DNA of 64,000 nt from Protaetiibacter mangrovi (GCF_024752305.1 NZ_JANTHX010000008.1:320825-384824), one strand, 5' to 3'; counted from the stretch's first letter, positions 51,120 through 55,757 are shown. Program-made: numbers and translations. The notes: generated by a model not told the origin, from the sequence alone.

Positions 51120-51323
51120 GTTTCGACCGTACCGCCTCCGGGGTGGCGTGCGGATGAGCGATCGGGGTACAAGGGTGCCCGTAGAACGGGAGGTCTGTCC
51201 GCCGTGGCACCCATCCGCGGGTGGAACGCCACCCACTGTACCCCGGAATCCACCCTGAACGTCACCTGTGTAAGTGACCAGAATGGACTGAAATGCCTGG
51301 TCAGAAGGCTATTGGCGTCGAAA

Positions 51324-51339
51324 GTGGGAGCGCTCCCAC
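51324..51339. promoter_or_regulatory. Perfect palindrome containing a CelR/CebR-type operator
   Basis: GTGGGAGCGCTCCCAC is a perfect 16-bp palindrome. Its inner 14 bases, TGGGAGCGCTCCCA, are the published operator of the LacI-family cellobiose regulators CelR (Thermobifida) and CebR (Streptomyces). It lies 30 bp upstream of the -35 box of the fibre locus. No LacI-family gene is present in the window. Confidence 0.75.
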
Positions 51340-51369
51340 GCCCCCCGCAGTGGGGCGGCCTCGTCCCCT

Positions 51370-51397
51370 TTGTCCGCCTTATGGAGGACCGTAGATT
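51370..51397 (+). promoter_or_regulatory. Promoter of the fibre locus
   Basis: TTGTCC (51370-51375) and TAGATT (51392-51397) with a 16-bp spacer; the most complete -35/-10 pair I see in the window. Confidence 0.6.
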
Positions 51398-51544
51398 GAG
51401 TGCAGTGGGGGATAGACAACATGACCCGCTCCACGACGGCCTGCGCAGGGCGCCGACCGGAACACAACCCGACGACATGACGTGCCTCCGGCGCGCCCTG
51501 CGTCATGCGCAACCCGACATCCACCCCGAAAGGCACAACCCGAA

Positions 51545-52171
51545 ATGAACAAGAACATCAAGGCGTCGATCGCCATCGCGGCAGGCGTGATCCTGCTCAT
51601 GGGCGGCGCCGGTTCGCTCGCCTACTGGAACGACTCGGTCAACGTCGGCCCCGCGTCCGGGAGCAACTCGATCAGCGCGGGCACCCTCTCGGTCGCCGCG
51701 GTGAACGCCGGCACCTGGACCAAGGCGTTCTACAACGCCAGCAACACCCAGGTCGTCGCCCCCGCCACCGTCTCGCCCCTCTCGGGCGTGTCGATCGTGC
51801 CGGGCAACCGACTCGTCTACACCCAGACGTTCAACATCACCGCCACCGGCCAGGACCTGTGGTTCACGATCGGCACCACCAACGGCGCCGTCTCGGGCAC
51901 CACCGCCAGCGCCGCCGACACCGCGCTCGCGCTCGCGATCAACAACTCGACCAACAGCTCGATCTCGGTCGGCAGCGTGACCGGCGGCAACGTCGTGGCC
52001 GCCACCACGCCGGGCGTCTACAAGGTGAACTCGAGCGCCGGCCCGTCGACCATCACGGTCACCTGGACGGTCGACTTCCCGTTCGGCGCCTCGGCGTCCA
52101 ACACCAGCAAGCTGGGCTCCGTCTCGCTGAGCCAGGGTGCCATCACCCTGACCCAGGTCGCGGCCCCGTAA
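51545..52171 (+). CDS. Alternate-signal-peptide exported protein (TasA/CalY-like fibre subunit)
   Basis: A 208-aa exported protein. The signal region MNKNIKASIAIAAGVILLMG, followed by GAGSLAYWNDSVNV, is the SipW-dependent alternate type seen in TasA/camelysin-like and RER_14450-like proteins. The mature part is a Thr/Ser/Ala-rich beta protein with VVAPATVSPLSGVSIVPGNRL and no cysteines. It is the first gene of the locus and is followed by a hairpin, which would make it the most abundant product: a likely major fibre subunit. Confidence 0.82.
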   Translation: MNKNIKASIAIAAGVILLMGGAGSLAYWNDSVNVGPASGSNSISAGTLSVAAVNAGTWTKAFYNASNTQVVAPATVSPLSGVSIVPGNRLVYTQTFNITATGQDLWFTIGTTNGAVSGTTASAADTALALAINNSTNSSISVGSVTGGNVVAATTPGVYKVNSSAGPSTITVTWTVDFPFGASASNTSKLGSVSLSQGAITLTQVAAP

Positions 52172-52177
52172 GACGGT

Positions 52178-52214
52178 CGGTCCGGGGACCCCACCCTGCC
52201 GGATCCCCGGACCG
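52178..52214 (+). terminator. Intra-operon hairpin after the first fibre gene
   Basis: CGGTCCGGGGA (52178-52188) pairs with TCCCCGGACCG (52204-52214), an 11-bp stem with a 15-base loop and no T-run. It may act as a partial terminator or an mRNA stabiliser that raises the ratio of the first gene. Confidence 0.5.
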
Positions 52215-52244
52215 CCATCCCTCCCCCCGAACGACGACGCTGAG

Positions 52245-52874
52245 ATGACGAGAACGATGAACCCGAACCGGAGAGCACGCGGCCGCTACCGCGCCGCCCC
52301 GGGCGTCGTCTCGTCCTCTCGGCGTCGTCCCCGTCTGCGCCTGCGGTTGCCGGGCATCCGCACCCTGCTCGGTGCGACCGCCGCGCTCTCGATCGGCGTC
52401 GGTGGCGCGGTCGTCGCGGCGGGCGGCAGCTACGCCTACCTCAACGCGACCGTCGCCGTCGGCGACGGCGGCAGCATCGCCTCGGGCACCGCCGCCCTCA
52501 CGCTCACCCGGGGAGCCGGCGCCGCGACCTCGGCGCTCACCATCCCCGCCGCCGTGTACGCCGGCATGCTGCCGGGCGACATCGTGAACCAGAGCATCAC
52601 CCTCACCAACGCGGGCAACACGACCCTGCTCGTCACGGCATCCGCCACCTCGGACGGCGCCTGGGACACCCGCGTCGCCTCCGGAGCGTGCCCCGCGACC
52701 CAGCTCGGCACCACCGCGCTCGGCACCACCCCGGTCTCCTACGCCACCCTCGCCGCGGCCGGCACCTCGACCGTGTGCCTGCAGGTCGTGCTGCCCGCAT
52801 CCGCGCCGGCGGCGACCATGAACACCTCGATCACCTACACCGTGACCTTCGACGGGACGCAGGTGGCCTCATGA
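52245..52874 (+). CDS. Exported protein with alternate signal peptide (second fibre-locus subunit)
   Basis: A 209-aa protein. A long basic N-terminus (RRPRLRLRLPGIR) precedes the hydrophobic core TLLGATAALSIGVGGAVVAA and the motif GGSYAYLNATVAV, equivalent to SLAYWND of the first gene. The mature part has beta-sandwich phrases (LPGDIVNQSITLTNAGNTTL) and two cysteines (GACPATQ, TVCLQV). It probably joins the fibre as a minor or anchoring subunit. The ATG at 52257 is an alternative start. The stop overlaps the next ATG by four bases. Confidence 0.8.
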   Translation: MTRTMNPNRRARGRYRAAPGVVSSSRRRPRLRLRLPGIRTLLGATAALSIGVGGAVVAAGGSYAYLNATVAVGDGGSIASGTAALTLTRGAGAATSALTIPAAVYAGMLPGDIVNQSITLTNAGNTTLLVTASATSDGAWDTRVASGACPATQLGTTALGTTPVSYATLAAAGTSTVCLQVVLPASAPAATMNTSITYTVTFDGTQVAS

Positions 52875-54292
52875 GGATCGGACGGATCGGGCGCGGGGCG
52901 AGGATCTCCCTCGTCGCCGGCATCGCCGCCTTCAGCGTGCTCGCCGGAACCGGCGCCGGATGGGCGTACTGGAGCGCCCAGGCGAGCTCCACGACCACCC
53001 TCGCCGCCGCGAACCTCACCGTCACCAGCAGCGGCTTCGCCGCGAGCACGCTCGGCAACGAGAACGTGACCGCGGCGGGCGCCTCCTCGCTCTCCACCAC
53101 GGGCAGCATCACCCTCACCAACTCCACCGTCACCTCGAGCACGCAGATCCAGACGCTCAGCGTGACCTTCTCGCGCGCGTCGGGCGACACCACCCTCGCC
53201 GGCGCGACCACGCTGACGGTCTGGCCGGTCGCCTCGGCGGCGAACTGCACCGCGACCGCCATCCCCACCGGGGCCACCTCGGCGAGCTGGTCGGCCGGCG
53301 TCACGGTGTCGACACCGCTGGCGGCGGGCAACTCGGCGATCTACTGCCTGCGCAACACGGTGGCGGATCGGCAGAGCATCTCCGCGGCGAGCGGAACCCG
53401 CAGCTTCACCCCGCAGGCCGCGGCGACCCTCACGGTGGGCAACTTCACCGGTACGGCGACGCCGACGAGCACCGTGCAGAGCCAGTACATCTACCCCCTG
53501 CAGCAGATCTCGGCCGGCTACTGGTGGTACGTCACCCTCGCGTCGACCACCTGGTGCTGGGACGTCAGCGGCCAGGCCACCACGAGCGGTTCGCAGCTCA
53601 TCTCGTTCGCCTGCAAGAACGGCACCGACGCCAACCAGGACTTCCGCTACGTCGACGGCGACGGAGACGGCTACGGCAACTTCCAGCCCCGCCACGCGAC
53701 GAACCTGCGGGTCGCCGCGGCGAACTCCACGACGTCCGGATCGGCCGTCGACATGCGCACCGCGGACGACGCATCCGCCCTGCAGCAGTGGCAGCCGCAG
53801 CTCGTGAGCGGCAGCGGGGCGTCGGGCACCTATCAGTTCGTCAACAAGTACTCGGGGCTGTGTCTCACGATGCCGGCGACGAGCACGGGTGCGGCCACGC
53901 AGACCACATGCGCGGGCAGCTCCTCCCAGCGGTTCACCTTCACCCAGCGGTCGGCCGTGCAGCTGACCAGCCTGAGCTGCACCAGCACGGGCAGCGGCAA
54001 CGGTCGCACCGCGACGTACAGCTGGACCTCCGACTGGGCGGGCGGCGGCTACACCGTGCAGGCCCAGCAGACCTCGACGAGCGCCTGGCAGACCATCGCG
54101 AGCGCGAGCGGCGCCGGCGCCACCTCGGCGGGCGTCCCCGCGCCGATCGGAACCCCGCTCACGAGCTGGGGATCGGGCACCTACAACGTGCGGATCCTCA
54201 ACGTCGACGGTGCCGTCGTCGGCACGGACACCATCACCGTGAGCGCCCAGTACGCCTTCATCTTCTTCCAGTACTACTACGCGGGGTGCTGA
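52871..54292 (+). CDS. Exported ricin-type lectin protein of the fibre locus
   Basis: A 473-aa exported protein. The signal region ISLVAGIAAFSVLAGTGAGW, then AYWSAQASS, is of the alternate type. An N-terminal beta domain of about 170 residues is followed by a ricin-type beta-trefoil (ISAGYWWYVTLASTTWCWDV, LRVAAANSTTSG, YQFVNKYSGLCLTMPATSTG, SSQRFTFTQR) and a C-terminal beta domain ending in aromatic residues (AFIFFQYYYAGC). The lectin should bind polysaccharide and could give the fibre an adhesive tip. It is coupled to the genes on both sides. Confidence 0.82.
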   Translation: MRIGRIGRGARISLVAGIAAFSVLAGTGAGWAYWSAQASSTTTLAAANLTVTSSGFAASTLGNENVTAAGASSLSTTGSITLTNSTVTSSTQIQTLSVTFSRASGDTTLAGATTLTVWPVASAANCTATAIPTGATSASWSAGVTVSTPLAAGNSAIYCLRNTVADRQSISAASGTRSFTPQAAATLTVGNFTGTATPTSTVQSQYIYPLQQISAGYWWYVTLASTTWCWDVSGQATTSGSQLISFACKNGTDANQDFRYVDGDGDGYGNFQPRHATNLRVAAANSTTSGSAVDMRTADDASALQQWQPQLVSGSGASGTYQFVNKYSGLCLTMPATSTGAATQTTCAGSSSQRFTFTQRSAVQLTSLSCTSTGSGNGRTATYSWTSDWAGGGYTVQAQQTSTSAWQTIASASGAGATSAGVPAPIGTPLTSWGSGTYNVRILNVDGAVVGTDTITVSAQYAFIFFQYYYAGC

Positions 54293-54294
54293 CG

Positions 54295-55113
54295 GTGCGG
54301 CGGCCGGGACTCCTCGCCGGGGCCATCGCGGTTCCGCTCGCCCTCGTCGGCATCCTCACCGCCTCGCCGGCGGGTGCCGCGAGCGATCCGATCGGCCTGT
54401 CCTCCGACGGAGTGAGCTTCTCCGCCGGATATCCGGGCCAACTGTTCGGCGGGGTCGCCGTCGTGCCGGGGGGCACCGCGACCCGCTCCTTCTGGGTCAA
54501 GAACCAGGAGGCGTCGGCGGGCAACCTCGCGGTCGCCATCCGCGACGTCGGCGGCGACGACGGCGTCTTCATCTCCGCGCTCTCCGTGACCGCCGAGGCG
54601 GGCGTCATGACGGGGCCCACCGTCGGCTTCGAGGACGTCGACCCCTGCACCCAGATCCTCGGCGGCGTGCAGCTCGCCCCCGGTTCCGTCGTGCGCGTCG
54701 ACGTCTCGCTCAGCCTCGCCGGCACCCTGAGCGGTCTCGAGGCGCAGGCCGCGATCGGCGCGTTCGACCTCGTGGTCGTGCTGCGCAGCGCCGAGGTGGC
54801 GGCGCCCGATCCGTGCGCGGCCCAGCCCGTGGAAGCGCCCCCGGCACCTCCCGCGGGAGGGCCGACGACCCCGACCCCCGAGTTCACCGACAGCGAGACC
54901 GTGCCCGGATCCGGCGGAGCGGTCGCCGATCCGGCGCCCACGCCCACCCCGTCGCCGCTGCCGGACACCGGCGACGAGACCACCGACCCGACGGCGTGGA
55001 ACACCGCCCGCCTCTACCAGGAGTACTTCGTCGCCGGGTGGCTGCTGGCCTTCGTTCTGGGGGGCGGCTACGCCTGGTTCCGTGGACGCCGACGTGAAAG
55101 GATCCCCGAATGA
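54295..55113 (+). CDS. Surface protein with LPxTG-like anchor (fibre locus)
   Basis: A 272-aa protein with a conventional signal peptide (RRPGLLAGAIAVPLALVGIL, then TASPAGAASD), a beta-rich domain of about 170 residues, a Pro/Thr-rich stalk (APPAPPAGGPTTPTP) and LPDTG followed by a hydrophobic helix and the tail RGRRRERIPE. It may anchor the fibre to the cell envelope. The LPDTG motif lies about 20 residues before the helix, more than usual, so sortase use is likely but not certain. GTG 54286 is the other possible start. The stop overlaps the sipW start. Confidence 0.75.
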   Translation: MRRPGLLAGAIAVPLALVGILTASPAGAASDPIGLSSDGVSFSAGYPGQLFGGVAVVPGGTATRSFWVKNQEASAGNLAVAIRDVGGDDGVFISALSVTAEAGVMTGPTVGFEDVDPCTQILGGVQLAPGSVVRVDVSLSLAGTLSGLEAQAAIGAFDLVVVLRSAEVAAPDPCAAQPVEAPPAPPAGGPTTPTPEFTDSETVPGSGGAVADPAPTPTPSPLPDTGDETTDPTAWNTARLYQEYFVAGWLLAFVLGGGYAWFRGRRRERIPE

Positions 55114-55757
55114 GCGAGCGGCGTGCGGCTCGGGACGCGCAGAAGAAGGACCACGGCCTCCTCTACTACATCGGGGTCGGGCTCAGCTGGGGCGTGCTCG
55201 CGCTCGTCGCGCTGATCGCCGCCCTCGTCGTGGTCGTTCCGGCCGTCGCGCAGGCGACGCCGTACACGATCCTCACGAGCTCGATGGAGCCGAACTACCC
55301 GCCCGGCACCCTGGTGATCGTCAAGCCGATCGCGACCGACGACATCCGGATCGGCACCGTCATCACCTACCAGCTCGAGTCGGGCGAGCCCGAGGTCGTG
55401 ACCCACCGGGTCGTGCAGATCGTGCAGCCGAACCTGCCGGGTGGCGAGAAGAGCTTCGTCACCAAGGGCGACGCCAACAGCCAGGCCGACCCGAACCCCG
55501 TCAAGCCCGTGCAGATCCGCGGCGCCGTCTGGTACGCGGTGCCGTGGATCGGATGGGTCAACAACCTGGTCAACGGCGACATGCGCTCGATCATCATCCC
55601 CGTGGTCGCCGGGTTCCTCTTCCTCTACGGCGGGTGGCTCATCGTCTCGAACCGCCTCGAGAAGCGGAAGAAGCGCCGCACGGAGGAGCTGGCGGCGCAG
55701 GAGGCGGCAGGCCAGGAGGAGCTCGCCCGCTACGCGCCGCCCGGCCCCTCGGCCTGA
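55110..55757 (+). CDS. SipW/ER-type signal peptidase
   Basis: A 215-aa signal peptidase I of the SipW (endoplasmic reticulum) type. Nucleophile Ser58 is in TSSMEPNYPPGTLV, and the general base is His99 in VVTHRVVQI where bacterial LepB has Lys. The conserved VTKGDANSQADPNPV follows. Helices at both ends (about 20-48 and 165-185) span the membrane. SipW in Bacillus processes TasA and TapA, so this enzyme most likely matures the three alternate-signal proteins encoded just upstream. Its ATG overlaps the previous stop. Confidence 0.93.
   Translation: MSERRAARDAQKKDHGLLYYIGVGLSWGVLALVALIAALVVVVPAVAQATPYTILTSSMEPNYPPGTLVIVKPIATDDIRIGTVITYQLESGEPEVVTHRVVQIVQPNLPGGEKSFVTKGDANSQADPNPVKPVQIRGAVWYAVPWIGWVNNLVNGDMRSIIIPVVAGFLFLYGGWLIVSNRLEKRKKRRTEELAAQEAAGQEELARYAPPGPSA

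Follow-up and report, generated by a model that had tools for sequence, protein, structure and literature searches.

Does an actinobacterium build a surface fibre of the TasA type, and if so, from which subunits and on what base? Fibres of this type are known from work on Bacillus and archaea. The question is raised by a gene cluster within a 64,000-nucleotide stretch of DNA (the window) from the draft genome of Protaetiibacter mangrovi (G000; 2.98 Mb in 16 contigs), for which a preliminary description claimed a five-gene locus paralleling the tapA-sipW-tasA operon of Bacillus. All five open reading frames, here called A to E, were found on the plus strand, co-directional and packed into a tight operon. 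The gene span is corrected to 51545-55757, as the preceding segment (51120-51544) lies upstream of A and overlaps the start of a divergent glgE-type ORF.

Gene organisation, signal peptides and signal peptidase

The first two genes, A (51545-52171, 208 aa) and B (52245-52874, 209 aa), encode proposed fibre subunits and are separated by a gap of 73 nt. They are followed by C (52871-54292, 473 aa), a proposed tip adhesin, D (54286-55113, 275 aa), a proposed membrane-held base whose start codon is a GTG at 54286 or 54295, and E (55110-55757, 215 aa), a signal peptidase. B/C and D/E are joined by 4-nt ATGA overlaps and C/D by one of 7 nt, which makes translational coupling from B to E probable. 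A promoter and terminator scan of the locus DNA, which is 72% GC, returned nothing useful.

Three of the exported proteins had been described as sharing an alternate signal motif (SLAYWND, GSYAYLN, GWAYWSA), and alignment of the A, B and C families bears this out. The SipW-type signal of A (MNKNIKASIAIAAGVILLMGGAGSLAYW) scores 26.8 bits against TIGR04088 (SipW-cognate signal), above the cut-off, and the protein as a whole scores 96 bits (cut-off 60) against TIGR04089, the alternate signal-mediated exported protein family, which is matched by all 68 A relatives. Residues A26 and W28 are kept in 68 of 68 A proteins, A64 in at least 90% of 48 B proteins, and in the N-domains of 41 C proteins A32 is kept in all and W34 in at least 90%. 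The signals of B and C went unrecognised by signal models when single sequences were scored; since the motif positions are near-invariant across the families, the shared signal class of A, B and C is no chance likeness. The signal peptide of D is of the ordinary Sec type.

The His-type signal peptidase that had been proposed is likewise recovered in E, which scores 86.3 bits against TIGR02228 (curated cut-off 51.85), the SipW-class or ER-archaeal (Ser-His) type, and whose catalytic S58 and H99, together with D121, are invariant among eight aligned proteins. It falls below the cut-off of the Bacillus SipW equivalog NF046067 (73.5 bits vs 190). Its substrates are assumed from linkage, because the genome encodes two other SipW-class peptidases, at L052:7932-9045 (contig C4, ~585 kb) and L053:8638-10072 (contig C5, ~16 kb). 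Each of these genes is preceded by another whose small exported product gave a B-like match, and one of the two loci adjoins ATP synthase genes; they are separate mini-systems.

The arrangement A-B-C-(D)-E has been kept across the Microbacteriaceae. Seven further genomes of the same genus show the full order, and in them the operon sits between glgE/glgB and an alpha-glucan phosphorylase gene; one more genome from this genus gave no match to A. A scan of 84,980 species genomes with E, in which the best 80 E loci were taken and genes were mapped by chained gene call, recovered A-B-C-D-E in Salinibacterium, Cryobacterium, Frigoribacterium, Herbiconiux, Schumannella and others, A-B-C-E without D in Curtobacterium, Clavibacter and some Microbacterium, and other gene orders in Rhodococcus and Aeromicrobium. 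An E gene is found within 6 kb of A in 77 of the best 80 A places and within 2 kb of D in 49 of 53 places, most of the exceptions being on contigs with no E match. In a sample of 150 genomes from the family, profile matches numbered 67 for A, 50 for D and 100 for E, the last count including paralogues. The sets in Rhodococcus and Aeromicrobium (L093, L109, L128), in which A-E-D-B or a similar order precedes a long ORF with an E-like match and which are tandemly repeated in some cases, represent a different version of the system.

Relationship of the subunits to TasA and archaeal pili

The parallel to the Bacillus operon appears to reach beyond gene layout, as the subunits themselves are related to TasA and to archaeal bundling pili. 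The evidence is clearest for B, which a profile of 48 relatives places in the TasA/camelysin superfamily (PF12389, TasA, AbpX). Run against 177,635 distinct PDB sequences, this profile ranked AbpX 9rhp, TasA 5of1, TasA 8aur and AbpX 9sj2 as its top four matches (E 0.0023-0.0068), with the matches after these (an antibody VHH and others) beginning at E 0.3. Among the 48 relatives, 26 match PF12389 (camelysin; best 4.7e-8), five match TIGR04090 (BsaA) and three weakly match NF046066 (TasA). Because B of the window by itself scores 12 bits against PF12389, under the cut-off of 22.5, its superfamily membership is assigned by the family profile. The domain contains two Cys residues that are invariant in the family. 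The B. subtilis TasA equivalog NF046066 matched none of A to D in the window.

The AlphaFold model of A contains a confident beta-sandwich (pLDDT ~93 over residues 41-208), preceded by an N-terminal stretch that is unordered up to residue ~40; residues ~28-46 are a candidate N-terminal donor segment. Its best Foldseek match among 350,542 PDB chains was the TasA fibre 8aur, a weak match (E 0.019, probability 0.84), and VIA gave matches of middling strength with tied scores, none above Z 6.1, with TasA not among the 50 matches listed. The model of D comprises a confident sandwich (residues 33-172), a disordered Pro-rich linker and a C-terminal TM helix (residues 243-270) with an Arg tail. Foldseek matched it best to the archaeal bundling pilus 7ueg (E 2.9e-4, probability 1.00), followed by the cannula fibre 9h8b (8.3e-4) and TasA 8aur (3.9e-3). 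VIA aligned D with 7ueg (Z 9.7, 143 residues, rmsd 9.3), the thread filament 7pnb (Z 8.9) and 8aur (Z 7.8, 129 residues, rmsd 3.4), in a list where unrelated sandwiches likewise reach Z 7 to 9 and which includes enzymes and MSP domains. TasA/pilus-like folds are thus predicted for both A and D, with the caveat that beta-sandwich folds readily match one another.

Sequence profiles of A, D and the C N-domain found no relative, and no TasA, among the PDB sequences, and D had no relevant family match in Pfam or NCBIfam. Profile-profile comparison (hhalign) linked the other subunits to the B family, at 96.8% for A, 98.9% for C and 95.6% for D, where the common signal contributes to the A-B score and to the C-B score; D compared with A gave 82.7%. 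A, C and D are therefore likely to be members of the same superfamily of TasA and archaeal donor-strand fibres.

The modular subunit C

The ricin-type lectin that had been claimed for one subunit is present in C, whose N-domain (residues ~1-190), related to B, is followed by the lectin and by a C-terminal Ig-like domain ending in Cys. The lectin, a beta-trefoil located at residues ~207-376 (53489-53998) by iterated profile search in C proteins, exceeds the cut-offs of both PF14200 (9.3e-10, 39.5 bits vs 25.6) and PF00652 (1.4e-9, 38.6 bits vs 29) and carries three QxW/F motifs, at 256, 305 and 353. Across 56 members of the C family the N-domain is constant and the distal modules vary, a ricin-type lectin occurring in 27, fn3 in 13, DUF11 in two and a cellulose-binding CBM_2 in one. 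The lectin is placed between the N-domain and the Ig-like domain in the group to which the window belongs; in Cryobacterium and others it occupies the extreme C-terminus, and it is missing from the C proteins of most Salinibacterium, Frigoribacterium and Curtobacterium. On the N-domain tree, lectin absence requires at least five changes, of which well-supported branches force two. A constant N-domain combined with variable distal modules and lectin changes is the pattern expected of an exchangeable adhesive tip. These sequence comparisons support C as a tip-like, lectin-bearing subunit with a swappable distal module, which would sit at the end of a fibre and bind glycans.

A putative donor-strand fibre and its base

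In B. subtilis, SipW cuts TasA and TapA, and the N-terminal strand of TasA completes the sandwich of its neighbour to form the polymer (PMC9674648), the chain being started by TapA through strand complementation (PMC10151520). We consider it likely, by a reasonable margin of confidence, that the operon described here encodes a surface fibre of the TasA or archaeal-bundling-pilus type, assembled through donor strands with D at the base and C at the tip. In the proposed mechanism, A, B and C would be exported via Sec, and E would cut their SipW-type signals, freeing the mature N-termini as donor strands. Each strand would fill the open beta-sandwich of a neighbouring subunit, and the resulting polymerisation by donor-strand exchange would need neither an usher nor a sortase. 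D, with its ordinary signal and no N-terminal donor segment, would be tethered to the membrane through its C-terminal helix and act as base, acceptor and nucleation point, and C would cap the opposite end and display a glycan-binding domain, here the ricin-type lectin. Polymerisation, donor-strand exchange, polarity, the tip position of C and glycan binding are what we infer; for polarity, we rely on the modular end of C and the lack of an N-terminal aromatic/Asn segment in D. D is missing from about two thirds of the genomes sampled in the family, and thus more often than A, so that a base role for D would not be universal.

A broader version of this model comes slightly short of an even chance. 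It takes base, shaft and tip as divergent copies of one TasA/archaeal-pilus fold, making the operon a complete actinobacterial donor-strand-exchange system in which D would be a membrane- or wall-held acceptor replacing TapA, and C a modular adhesin that exchanges its glycan-binding domain from lineage to lineage. Were this so, the system would be a Gram-positive, usher-free counterpart of the adhesin-tipped chaperone-usher pili.

The main alternative involves no fibre at all: the four exported proteins would be SipW-processed surface adhesins, assembling on the membrane protein D into a short stalk or a complex that does not polymerise. Four distinct subunits of like fold could form a defined hetero-oligomer, and the membrane anchor of D and the lectin of C are compatible with such an assembly. 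However, the known state of the relatives is a long fibre, and the signal class and its pairing with a peptidase are as in the TasA operon; we therefore judge a stalk or complex unlikely, though it deserves more weight than the other alternatives.

It is far less probable that the operon specifies a sortase-built, wall-linked pilus or a fibre anchored to the wall via D, a question that turns on the C-terminus of D. The protein contains an LPDTG sequence (residues 225-229, 54958-54972) and had been described as having a sortase-like anchor. It is of the anchor type, as its TM helix and Arg tail attest, but the sortase-like part of the claim did not hold: LPDTG is probably no working sorting signal, as it sits 18 residues ahead of the hydrophobic core, is LPHSG in one of the two nearest D relatives (L057) and absent from the other (L037), and D does not match the LPXTG anchor model PF00746. 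A juxtamembrane NTxR[LF]YQEY motif is conserved in D and its nearest relatives in place of LPDTG. Elsewhere in the family the picture differs, as about half of 41 D proteins have canonical LAxTG/LPxTG-TM-Arg tails: an LxxTG lies within 12 residues of the core in 15, and, read by eye, ~5 more are near-canonical (xxxTG), ~14 are of the NTxRxYQEY type and ~7 are neither. Judging from these tails, the D family is retained by either sortase-type or membrane-type means, and D of the window is most likely membrane-held. Owing to the canonical signals in other lineages, some members of the family may be attached to the wall. The genome does encode two sortases, but both are on other contigs, and A, B and C have no pilin-type sorting signals; with no such signals in these subunits and no sortase nearby, we rejected a sortase pilus. 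Thus, of the lectin-tipped, wall-attached fibre put forward in the preliminary description, the lectin-bearing, tip-like subunit stands, the fibre is retained as a model and attachment to the wall by sortase is set aside for this D. In two genomes of the genus with the operon at the same chromosomal site (G006 and G002; L041:7298-9571, L042:4433-6298), C belongs to a different clade and D carries a true LPYTG or LPFTG signal, as if the alleles there had been exchanged for others.

That A and B are camelysin-type metalloproteases, as the PF12389 matches of 26 of the 48 B relatives might suggest (a family named Peptidase_M73 in Pfam), is barely credible and was rejected, because TasA of the same superfamily is structural and neither A nor B of the window has a histidine, so that no HExxH-type zinc site is possible.

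The membrane-based fibre that we favour can be set beside three known systems. With tapA-sipW-tasA (8aur) it shares a SipW-class peptidase encoded beside SipW-signal substrates and subunits of the TasA superfamily, and the overlap of D with the start of E resembles that of tapA with the sipW start codon in B. subtilis (PMC10151520). It differs in having several TasA-like subunits instead of one, a lectin subunit and a proposed base that has an ordinary signal and is held in the membrane by its C-terminus, and it gave no TapA match in Pfam and NCBIfam, which may or may not hold a TapA model. The B. cereus sipW-calY1-BC1280(capP)-calY2 system makes a multi-subunit, sortase-independent heterofilament with a cell-surface assembly factor (PMC13082335), as the proposed fibre would be. 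CapP combines repeats with a DUF4047 N-domain that its AlphaFold model shows as helical, whereas a TasA/pilus-like sandwich is predicted for D, together with a TM anchor; unlike C, no lectin is mentioned for the B. cereus system (PMC13082335). The archaeal bundling pili AbpA/AbpX (7ueg, 9rhp) and threads (7pnb) are similar to it in predicted fold and in sequence profile but belong to another domain of life. They are donor-strand fibres of usher-less cells, and to our knowledge neither has a lectin tip. The NCBIfam models TIGR04089 and TIGR02228 describe the families of A and E and name the signal class only; they do not extend to B, C, D or the relationship to fibres.

The peptidase class, the A family (TIGR04089) and TasA fibres are already known; what is new is the multi-subunit set with its proposed lectin tip and TasA-like anchored base. 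We found no SipW/TasA-type system in actinobacteria in the open-access literature, subscription papers aside. The Microbacteriaceae include plant-associated and plant-pathogenic genera. If the model is correct, the TasA assembly principle is widespread in this family, with dedicated tip and base subunits, and could explain glycan adhesion and biofilm formation there; the four proteins are available for direct testing of donor-strand polymerisation in Gram-positives.

Surface genes of a putative sortase type were encountered at two other places. The P. mangrovi genome has a likely sortase pilus locus on contig C10 (L054:5240-7860), beside ribosomal protein genes, in which the gene for a protein ending in LPFTGG adjoins a sortase gene. 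In the close relative Micrococcales bacterium 72-143 (L038:8663-13835, corresponding to the region upstream of A in L057), the fibre operon is immediately preceded by several LPxTG-type surface genes that look like a sortase pilus cluster, which suggests that this site collects surface genes.
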